This document shows positions 3,558-6,190 of a DNA stretch of 53,324 nt, piece by piece (position 1 is the stretch's first letter; each line of letters begins with the position of its first letter). The DNA is from Chitinispirillia bacterium. GTDB taxonomy: Bacteria; Fibrobacterota; Chitinivibrionia; Chitinivibrionales; Chitinispirillaceae. The stretch lies in NCBI GenBank assembly GCA_009784115.1, contig WRCH01000005.1:1-53324 (forward strand), given 5' to 3'. The position numbers were made by a program, and so were the translations under genes. Under the pieces are notes generated by a model, which was given only the letters and a program-made list of their open reading frames with translations, searched no databases and had not been told where the DNA came from.

Positions 3558-3974
3558 TCAAGCCCCTTTTACTCTTTTAATAAAACTTTTATCCATTTCA
3601 AAGCAATCGATAGAGTCAAAAAAGGAGTAAACGTCGCAAACGTCCAAAAAATCATCAAGCGAATCGCCCGGCTGTTTGCTCATTAACCCTGCTCTTATCA
3701 TATTATAAACGATGCAGCCAAAATCATCCGTAGTTTCTACGCCCCAATTCTTGAGAACGCTTTTTGCCATCAGCCCAAACTGTTTATTCGCAAATGAGAG
3801 AAGCCCTATCGTCAGCTCCTGACCGGTTACATGGCGCTTTTCTCCGATTTTTGAGATGTAGAAATCAAGCCCGTTTAAAACGAACTCGTAAGCGCCGGTT
3901 TTATAGCGGTCATCAAGACCGTTTTCTATAATCTCGTCTCTTACTCTGTCTATGATTTGAGGAGAAACTGCCAT
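3558..3974 (-). CDS. Minf_1886 family protein (TIGR04138-like)
   Basis: A 138-residue soluble protein of unknown function. It matches the Minf_1886 family, known from Verrucomicrobia, Planctomycetes and Fibrobacter relatives. The visible signature is the run from YKTGAYEFVLNGLDFYISK through HVTGQELTIGLLSFANKQFG to LKNWGVETTDDFGCIVYNMI, then AGLMSKQPGDSLDDFLDVCD. Its length is normal and it appears complete. It is transcribed toward nadA (convergent, 32 nt between stops). The gap to the upstream STAS-PEGA gene carries palindromes, so co-transcription is uncertain. Family assignment is from memory of the motif pattern. Confidence 0.8.
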   Translation of the reverse strand: MAVSPQIIDRVRDEIIENGLDDRYKTGAYEFVLNGLDFYISKIGEKRHVTGQELTIGLLSFANKQFGLMAKSVLKNWGVETTDDFGCIVYNMIRAGLMSKQPGDSLDDFLDVCDVYSFFDSIDCFEMDKSFIKRVKGA

Positions 3975-4119: not shown

Positions 4120-5883
4120 TTAGTTCCTGAGATTAATAAACCGAGTTGGGTTATTACCCGGCTGGAACGTCAAAGTTTCGGTTTTTTCTACACCGTCTTT
4201 TACAAATCTGACCTGATGCGTACCTACAGGCACCTGTATATTTGCATTCGACTGTCCGATAAGTCTGCCGCCGATGAAAACATCCGCGTTAGCCGGCAGT
4301 GTAGCGATAAATATGCTTGCTCCCGCTGCGGCTGGCGGCGGTGCTGCTGCCGGCGGCGGAGGCGGAGGCGGTGCTGCCGCAGCCGGCGGCGGCGGAGGAG
4401 GAGCTGCCGGTGCGGGCGGCGGAGGCGGAGTTGCTGCCTGTGCCCGCAGTGTGAACGCGTGAGTTTGTGTTCCGCCGCTATAATCTATACTTTTTGACTC
4501 TTTAGCGAAACCGGCCCTGGAGACGGAGATAACCATGTCGCCAAAGAACGGCGTAGTCCATGTAAAAGGGGTTACACCTTTTCTGTCGCCGTCAATTTCA
4601 ACTGTCGCTCCGCTTGGGTTAGACGTTATAATGATCTGGTTTCTCTGAGCCGGTGCCGCAGGCGCAGGCGCCGGAGCGGGTGCAGGCGGCGGCGCTGCGA
4701 CTTTTGCCGCAGGAGTCGGCGCCGGTGCGGGAGTCGGAGCTGTTTTAGCCGCGGGCGCTGGAGCTGGAGCCGCTTTTGCGGCTGGAGCCGGCGCGGGCGC
4801 CGCTCTTGCCGGCGGCGGCGGCGGCGGTGTCGTTTTCGCCGGAGCTGGCGGCGGCGTCGGAGCTGTTTTCGCAACCGCGGCAACAGGCTGTGTTACAGGC
4901 GCTTCGGTTGTGGCTACCGGAATATCAGGAGCCGGTTCCGCCGGTTTCTCTTCCGCTGCCGGAGGCTTGGCAGGAGCGGCAGCCGCAACTGGAGCCGCTT
5001 CATCTCCCCCTTTATTTAAGACAAAAACGAATAAGCCGACTACACCGAGCACTACTACAACCAACGCAGCCACAAGCGCGGGTACAGGGAACCCTTTTTT
5101 GGGCTTTGTTGAAAATTCGTCGTCATCAAACCCTTTTTGCTTTTTGCTCTTTTTATCATCAAAATCATCAAAATCTTCAAAAGAACCAAAGTCTTTCTCT
5201 GCCGGTGCATCTGTCCTTGGCGGCGGCGGTCCAAATGCCGGGGCTTTTGGCGCAGCAGCTGCCGGTGCGGGCGCAAGGGCCGGTGCCGGAGTCGGCGGAG
5301 GCGGTGCGGCAGGTGCCGGGGCAGGTGCGGCTTTTGCCGCGGGAGCCGGCGGCGGAGCAATTGGCGCCGGAGCAGGCTCTATCTCAAACGCGTCAAATGA
5401 CTTCGGCGCTTGAGGAGCTGGAGGCGGCGCGGCAGGCGCCGGCGCTGGTGCAGCAGCTTGCAGAGGCGCGTCTCCAAACGCGTTGCCGATCTCTGAGCGC
5501 AAACTCTCAAATTCCGTCTGCGGCGACTGCTGTTTCTTTATCTCATCGGAGAGCGCCAAAATCTCATCTTCAGTTTTGAACACACCCATAATACTCGGGA
5601 TATCCATTCTTTGGAGAATCCCCACTACTTTGGGCTGAGGAGCAAACAGCGTAAATGTTCCGTTGAGTCCTAGAACTTTTTTGTTAAGATCCCGAAGCGC
5701 GTTGTTATCGCCCGATGAGAAATCATCAAGCGGCGACATGTCAATGGCGAAATTACGCTTTCCGGAAGAGATCATCTGTTCAACGAACTCTTTAAGCATG
5801 CTGGAGTTGAAGACGATATCATCTTCTTCAAAAACCGGCAGCACGACATCGAAAATCCCAAGGGTCTTGACCTGGAAGTTAAT
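4120..5883 (-). CDS. STAS-TM-PEGA protein with Pro/Ala linkers, apparent ATT start
   Basis: A 587-residue protein counted from an ATT codon at 5883. Layout: STAS domain at about 1-110 (LDDFSSGDNNALRDLNKKV, FTLFAPQPKVVGILQRMDI); a Pro/Ala-rich stretch; an acidic-then-basic patch; one transmembrane helix at about 263-288 (VPALVAALVVVVLGVVGLF); a second Pro/Ala linker; PEGA domain 1 at about 416-484 (ITSNPSGATVEIDG, GVTPFTW); another linker; and a PEGA-like domain at about 524-587. It probably places the STAS domain in the cytoplasm and PEGA domains in the periplasm near cell wall or carbohydrate. Start choice: AAGGAGG stands 5 nt before ATT, a stop lies just upstream, and there is no ATG. The alternative GTG at 5844 would cut the first STAS strand. 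A promoter lies at 5987-6014. The function is unknown. Confidence 0.85.
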   Translation of the reverse strand: MNFQVKTLGIFDVVLPVFEEDDIVFNSSMLKEFVEQMISSGKRNFAIDMSPLDDFSSGDNNALRDLNKKVLGLNGTFTLFAPQPKVVGILQRMDIPSIMGVFKTEDEILALSDEIKKQQSPQTEFESLRSEIGNAFGDAPLQAAAPAPAPAAPPPAPQAPKSFDAFEIEPAPAPIAPPPAPAAKAAPAPAPAAPPPPTPAPALAPAPAAAAPKAPAFGPPPPRTDAPAEKDFGSFEDFDDFDDKKSKKQKGFDDDEFSTKPKKGFPVPALVAALVVVVLGVVGLFVFVLNKGGDEAAPVAAAAPAKPPAAEEKPAEPAPDIPVATTEAPVTQPVAAVAKTAPTPPPAPAKTTPPPPPPARAAPAPAPAAKAAPAPAPAAKTAPTPAPAPTPAAKVAAPPPAPAPAPAPAAPAQRNQIIITSNPSGATVEIDGDRKGVTPFTWTTPFFGDMVISVSRAGFAKESKSIDYSGGTQTHAFTLRAQAATPPPPPAPAAPPPPPPAAAAPPPPPPPAAAPPPAAAGASIFIATLPANADVFIGGRLIGQSNANIQVPVGTHQVRFVKDGVEKTETLTFQPGNNPTRFINLRN

Positions 5884-5986
5884 AGTAACCTCCTTGAATA
5901 ATGCTTAAGTTATATGTTTTCATCAGAATAATTTGCTTCTTGTTGATACGGCCAAAATATGTATCTAACTCCGTACCATTTTTTAA

Positions 5987-6014
5987 TTATACCTTATTTT
6001 ACAACTTTTTACAA
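5987..6014 (-). promoter_or_regulatory. Sigma-70-type promoter for the STAS-PEGA gene
   Basis: Reading on the minus strand: TTGTAA (6014-6009), 16 nt, TATAAT (5992-5987). It lies about 100 nt upstream of the ATT start. Two other strong candidate promoters in the window also use TTGTAA as -35. Confidence 0.6.
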
Positions 6015-6116: not shown

Positions 6117-6190
6117 TACGCCAGACAGGATTCGAACCTGTGGCCTTCGGCTCCGGAGGCCGACGCTCTATCCAGCTGAGCTACTGGCGC
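6117..6190 (-). tRNA. tRNA-Arg (anticodon CCG)
   Basis: A 74-nt cloverleaf on the minus strand. The acceptor arm is GCGCCAG/CTGGCGT, the D arm contains AGCTCAGCTGGATAGAGC, the anticodon stem is TCGGC/GCCGA with loop CTCCGGA (anticodon CCG), and the T arm contains GGTTCGAATCC. The discriminator base is A, CCA is not encoded, and a run of six T follows directly. It decodes CGG. Confidence 0.95.

Follow-up and report, generated by a model that had tools for sequence, protein, structure and literature searches.

Evidence for a conserved AUU/AUC start codon in a STAS-PEGA membrane protein gene of Chitinispirillia-type Fibrobacterota, probably tied to IF3

IF3 destabilises initiation complexes at weak start codons such as AUU and AUC, and infC, the gene encoding IF3, is autoregulated in this way. 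To our knowledge, very few bacterial genes other than infC start with AUU, AUC or AUA. The streptomycete gene sigR has a GTC start that is repressed by IF3, and its product is overproduced when the codon is changed to ATG, GTG or TTG (PMC5472188). In Borrelia burgdorferi, annotation missed the AUU start of pncA, and the fold of the protein needs the N-terminus encoded there (PMC13398362). According to excerpts of two articles that cite the work, the E. coli gene pcnB is a chromosomal gene other than infC whose AUU start limits expression (PMC9410913, PMC13009471). Excerpts of the latter article further describe two Staphylococcus aureus genes, ccpN (AUA) and cvfC1 (AUU), which carry an extended Shine-Dalgarno (SD) sequence and reach about 10% of the output of AUG versions in poor medium, the output of ccpN being relatively higher in rich medium and its noncanonical start being conserved from S. 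aureus to B. subtilis (PMC13009471).

Here we analysed a stretch of 53,324 nucleotides (the window, contig C5 of the 2.87-Mb, 205-contig draft genome G000) with regard to a gene coding for a membrane protein with STAS and PEGA domains, hereafter STAS-PEGA. The gene shares with infC an AUU/AUC start behind a long SD in the same context in the same genomes, but its product is a membrane protein rather than IF3, and feedback on the own product is not implied. Like pcnB, it is a gene other than infC with an AUU start, although gene and phylum differ. A conserved noncanonical start combined with an extended SD is also found in ccpN and cvfC1; STAS-PEGA differs from these in the identity of the gene and in the interchange of AUU and AUC, and its hairpin and tandem arrangement with a tRNA are not described for ccpN and cvfC1 in the excerpts of PMC13009471. 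With sigR (GTC/GTT), it has in common a rare start with a pyrimidine as third base and a regulator-type gene, and the ribosome binding site of sigR is likewise extended (AGGAGGTG; PMC5472188). However, the sigR start is GTC instead of AUY and conserved within Streptomyces only, and repression by IF3 is experimental for sigR whereas we infer it for STAS-PEGA. As in pncA, an AUU start provides an N-terminus required for the fold, but pncA represents one gene in one species where regulation is not at issue. In every sequence-level feature tested, STAS-PEGA thus appears to resemble infC, pcnB, ccpN, cvfC1, sigR and Borrelia pncA. This kind of noncanonical start is known as such; for the gene, the phylum, the interchange of AUU and AUC in nine or more families and the features next to the gene, the literature searched gave no precedent. 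Since STAS-PEGA has a function unrelated to infC and retains its weak start over at least nine families, it bears on the question of a wider IF3 regulon.

Start codon and encoded protein

The features of the gene and its start region, all on the minus strand, are as follows.

5905..5907, minus strand: TAA, which closes the frame eight codons before ATT
5889..5895, minus strand: extended SD AAGGAGG, followed by the 5-nt spacer TTACT and then ATT
5881..5883, minus strand: ATT, the start codon of STAS-PEGA, from the sequence; the orthologous column is ATT/ATC in 39/39 core-clade loci
5842..5844, minus strand: internal GTG, codon 14, first canonical in-frame start codon, rejected as start
4120..5883, minus strand: gene for the STAS-PEGA membrane protein, open frame of 587 codons counted from ATT, complete
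5530..5883, minus strand: N-terminal STAS domain, residues 1-118 (AlphaFold2 pLDDT 91; PDB STAS matches with E 3.7e-6 to 1e-3)
5017..5073, minus strand: predicted transmembrane segment, residues 271-289 (hydropathy maximum 3.23)
4126..4317, minus strand: C-terminal PEGA domain (PF08308), the best of two PEGA stretches

The minus strand from 5907 down to 5872 reads TAA GCA TTA TTC AAG GAG GTT ACT ATT AAC TTC CAG. No ATG, GTG, TTG or CTG is present between the TAA and the ATT, and the only usable in-frame start is a codon other than AUG, GUG or UUG. A reading made from the sequence alone had already placed AAGGAGG 5 nt before the ATT at 5883, a stop codon a few codons upstream and no ATG, GTG or TTG in between; all of this was found to be correct, and CTG turned out to be absent, too. 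Among all ATT, ATC and ATA codons of the window, this is the sole one that is preceded by GGAGG at a distance of 4-8 nt, opens a frame of 100 or more codons and has a stop no further than 40 codons upstream, while the same criteria returned three cases for ATG and one for GTG/TTG.

The encoded protein has a cytoplasmic-type STAS domain and, at the C-terminus, PEGA domains, along with a long Pro/Ala-rich linker and a single predicted membrane segment. In the AlphaFold2 model of residues 1-118 (pLDDT 91), the first strands are located at residues 2-8 and 11-17, and a Foldseek search of this model against the PDB matched the STAS proteins TM1081, RsbS and SpoIIAA, with TM-scores up to 0.79 to TM1081 (E 3.7e-6). 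The STAS profile PF01740 scored 22.4 bits (E 1.1e-4) against a curated cut-off of 22.6 for the window protein, and 25.0-43.1 bits, above this cut-off, for seven homologues; the PEGA profile PF08308 matched the window protein with 66.9 bits (E 1.5e-18, cut-off 20.8). Initiation at the GTG at 5844-5842 would delete STAS strand 1 and about half of strand 2 of the model and was rejected on this ground, in agreement with the earlier proposal that the first 13 residues match a STAS first strand which a GTG start would remove. For the same gene, gene finders limited to ATG, GTG and TTG will produce a protein truncated within the STAS domain. The literature searched contained no papers on STAS together with PEGA or on Chitinispirillia together with STAS. 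The STAS motif at residues 52-61 of the window protein is LDDFSSGDNN in the genus of the window and LDYIYSDxIN in most relatives; by comparison with SpoIIAA, we presume that the usual STAS phospho-acceptor position may be altered in this genus. Downstream of STAS-PEGA, a protein of 137-138 amino acids without Pfam match is conserved in two loci (window 3558-3974 and L068:8329-8742), separated from STAS-PEGA in the L068 locus by a gene for an M23/LysM-like peptidase; a gene for a RecD2-like helicase is located upstream of the tRNA-Arg gene described below.

Conservation of the start column and initiation context

Homologues were searched in 60 relatives and then in 168 genomes of the phylum. 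The core set comprises 39 loci in 37 genomes of Chitinispirillia-type Fibrobacterota, which belong to families f1-f7, f11 and f13. All genomes compared are drafts, most of them metagenome-assembled, and tips of the tree cannot count as independent. Of the 39 loci, 19 have ATT and 20 ATC in the start column, none has ATG, and the SD is of the GGAGG or GGGG type; this count includes five mutually identical STAS sequences from f11 and, as the second locus of genome G024, a STAS-KAP NTPase fusion, which is therefore a paralogue. The relatives sharing ATT or ATC come from independent metagenome projects and habitats, and a sequencing error as source of the ATT was rejected because the same codon class recurs in these independently assembled genomes. 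The sequence-only reading had named an alignment of orthologues as the check and ATG at this position as the sign of such an error: no canonical codon replaces the start within the clade across its species, and ATG occupies the column only in four orthologues of distant families (f9, f10 and f14). The weak start is thus not universal. The STAS part of the fusion (L090:2138-4501, G024:C2) groups with the STAS-PEGA clade, and its ATC start lies behind CGGAGG. Homologues in Fibrobacteraceae (L186-L192) consist of STAS plus a C-terminal membrane segment, with no PEGA domain seen, and mostly look leaderless, with TATATT 6-8 nt before ATG. We rejected the idea that this arrangement represents another IF3-sensitive mode, since the pattern is common and hence unspecific (169 and 232 sites in two Fibrobacteraceae genomes compared to 17 and 43 in controls with the reversed pattern).

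Two loci are particularly informative with regard to the position of the start. G035 reads AGGAGG TAG CGT ATC and G029 reads TAA GGA GGG GTT ATC, and these in-frame stops beside the SD leave ATC as the only plausible start. In addition, the single-STAS paralogues of the same families, which form a separate group in the tree (support 100/100) and in some cases come from genomes that also carry STAS-PEGA, have ATG at the aligned column in 7/7 cases. On the STAS tree, at least five exchanges of T and C are seen at the third base of the start codon, but a purine never occurs there in the 39 loci, compared to 49% purines (549/1130) at fourfold-degenerate third positions and 62 ATA among 451 internal Ile codons of the same genes. 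By itself, a third base restricted to T and C is also compatible with an internal Ile codon, and the case for a start rests on the stops, the SD and the paralogues. This matters for the view that translation begins elsewhere, at an upstream noncanonical codon, by frameshifting or at an internal GTG or ATG, with Ile as an internal residue. Such a residue would be conserved just as Ile is at position 1 in 39 loci, and in three loci (G009, G028 and G034) there is an in-frame canonical codon upstream. Yet the stops in G035 and G029 directly adjoin the SD, the spacing between SD and ATT/ATC is optimal, the paralogues have ATG at exactly this column, and the downstream canonical codons are inconsistent among loci and would cost strand 1. 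We thus consider this view extremely improbable and it to be practically certain, as judged from these comparisons, that translation of the STAS-PEGA gene starts at the ATT; the earlier assignment of ATT as the true start is borne out by the conserved column, the ATG of the paralogues, the stops beside the SD and the dependence of the fold on the N-terminus. An overlapping mini-ORF that ends at ATTAA in the window was dismissed as a coupling device, because its TAA is lost in relatives with ATC.

Since ATG is only one substitution away, selection appears to maintain a weak start, and the retention of ATY by at least nine families despite repeated T/C changes argues for this as well. The deep branches of the STAS tree are weak and the branch order among f8-f14 is poorly supported, so that either ATY was ancestral with two returns to ATG or it arose more than once.

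The extended SD is of the kind that compensates for a weak start. Its predicted pairing with the 3' end of 16S rRNA amounts to -12.4 kcal/mol for the window gene, the 16S tail GGATCACCTCCTTT that matches it occurring once in the same genome, and to -12.0 kcal/mol on average for the ATT/ATC loci (range -7.5 to -13.6), whereas the four ATG orthologues have far weaker values of -5.9 to -6.6 kcal/mol. This contrast is the pattern expected where a strong SD would support a weak codon. Position -1 is U in 36/39 ATT/ATC loci compared to 10/24 strong-SD ATG sites, a control that is small and noisy, and this enrichment is suggestive. In nearly all relatives examined, infC has an ATT or ATC start behind GGAGG as well (ATA in one), and the contexts can be almost identical, as in G011 with AAG GAG GTT TTT ATT AAC for infC and AAG GAG GTT ATT ATT AAC for STAS-PEGA. 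In the genome of the window, infC is a separate gene (G000:C20), and STAS-PEGA does not encode IF3.

Proposed discrimination by IF3 and alternative explanations

Taken together, these observations suggest the following mechanism. The long SD would bring the 30S subunit to the AUU/AUC start of the STAS-PEGA mRNA, where the mismatch with the initiator tRNA would expose the complex to proofreading by IF3. Initiation would thus be inefficient and track free IF3, as is the case for infC, and in family f1, that of the window, a hairpin burying the SD may act as a second brake. The likely purpose would be to keep the membrane-anchored protein scarce and its level coupled to the state of the translation machinery. 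We consider this reading as a whole, i.e. inefficient, IF3-discriminated AUU/AUC initiation that keeps STAS-PEGA scarce, to be reasonably likely. Regarding its parts, the start very likely functions as a low-output start, while the chances for a physiologically meaningful response to IF3, which is argued by analogy, are somewhat better than even. Control through initiation fidelity had been raised from the sequence alone; the same start type and context in infC and the restriction of strong SDs to the weak starts speak for it indirectly, and the output of STAS-PEGA is probably low and tied to IF3, both of which we infer.

The following features upstream of and around the start are relevant for the alternatives.

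6117..6190, minus strand: tRNA-Arg(CCG), on the same strand as and upstream of STAS-PEGA (ARAGORN; Rfam E 2.4e-15)
5986..6014, minus strand: promoter-like TTGTAA-17-TATAAT in the long leader, a weak consensus match only (2 promoter-like matches compared to 1.4 expected)
5874..5893, minus strand: predicted 8-bp hairpin GGAGGTTA-CTAT-TAACTTCC with the SD in the 5' arm (RNA folding)

The same sequence pattern can be explained without any sensing of IF3, if the weak start is a static brake as in pcnB that caps the output of a protein harmful in excess and IF3 has no physiological effect. A membrane protein with long Pro/Ala-rich linkers would suit this explanation, and an excerpt of PMC13009471 that cites the finding presents the translation of pcnB as limited by the AUU start. 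On the other hand, infC has the same type of start in the same genomes, so that fluctuations of IF3 should reach STAS-PEGA, too, and we regard a purely static brake as rather unlikely. Another explanation starts from the tRNA-Arg(CCG), which is found just upstream on the same strand in 26/27 loci of f1-f6, the exception being the STAS-KAP fusion, and also in f14; the assembly of the window contains no second near-identical copy of it. The distance between tRNA and start is mostly 33-81 nt, 12-15 nt in f14 and 172-233 nt in the genus of the window. Given the short gap of 33-81 nt, tRNA and gene are probably transcribed together, yielding a putative tRNA-mRNA co-transcript. The mRNA could then be a by-product of the tRNA transcript that needs poor translation, and the weak start would offset a strong tRNA promoter, in line with a gap that mostly leaves no room for a separate promoter. 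However, f7, f11 and f13 keep ATC or ATT without the tRNA, f14 has ATG in spite of the adjacent tRNA, and the genus of the window still has ATT with its long leader and promoter-like site. The tRNA therefore does not explain the start codon, and we hold this explanation to be improbable.

The hairpin, finally, could be the true regulator, as a thermometer or as target of a protein or a small RNA, with AUU being retained for the pairing of its third base in the stem. In the RNA of the window (GGAGGUUA-CUAU-UAACUUCC), the SD is predicted to pair with codons 2-4; of the AUU, bases 1 and 2 would lie in the loop and base 3 would pair with position -3. The stem is kept in 17/17 genomes of f1, the family of the window, with at most one pair lost, and the -3/+3 pair is A-U or G-U in 16 of these 17 genomes. 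Synonymous recoding usually resulted in a weaker stem, and the codon for Phe3 is TTC in 26/31 cases compared to 80/164 elsewhere. But no covariation or compensatory changes were found within the f1 stem, whose arms are also constrained as SD and codons, and beyond f1 the stem mostly fades: it is absent or weak in f2, f5, f6, f7, f11 and f13, all of which keep ATC or ATT. We therefore consider a role of the hairpin as the actual regulator to be quite improbable, and the hairpin itself is a family-level prediction from RNA folding, not proof. A search of Rfam near the start returned the tRNA only. In G026 (f4), a stem of similar strength but different sequence is present.

Other genes with weak starts

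Through one match of a signature search we came upon a pyruvate-dehydrogenase-like E1 alpha-beta fusion (E1_dh 5e-53, Transket_pyr 2e-26), hereafter E1. In about 20-21 of 28 genomes (L243-L270), its start is ATT or ATC preceded by GGAGG or GGGGG; genus g2 has an apparent TTG, and f3 and G033 have ATG. In the genome of the window, it reads ACACTGGAGGATAT ATC (L205:7822-9855, G000:C2). A signature search of this genome that required AAY as second codon gave convincing starts for infC and STAS-PEGA only and missed E1 with its second codon AGC. We scanned about 450 kb of the genome, about 360 kb of it chosen blind to such genes, with a total of 277 ORFs of 150 or more codons, for ATT/ATC starts that combine a strong SD with a stop close by upstream and lack a canonical alternative. 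The scan returned STAS-PEGA, infC and E1 only, all three in stretches picked because they were known. Loose start use throughout the lineage was therefore rejected, and ATY starts appear to be rare and gene-specific.

It is possible, albeit tentative, that infC, STAS-PEGA and E1 form a small IF3 regulon in Chitinispirillia-type Fibrobacterota whose members are set apart by their start codons, to which the f1 hairpin and co-transcription with tRNA-Arg would add translation-linked inputs. If this were true, IF3 availability would jointly set translation capacity, an envelope/regulatory protein and the entry of carbon into central metabolism. STAS-PEGA is a ready test gene for such control, with ATG orthologues and paralogues as natural controls and E1 as second candidate. 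A further gene of the same genome, coding for a lipid A acyltransferase-like protein (L210:12879-13811, G000:C8; Lip_A_acyltrans E 3e-38), has no canonical start before codon 33 and possibly uses a CTG start, which lies behind ACGGAGG.
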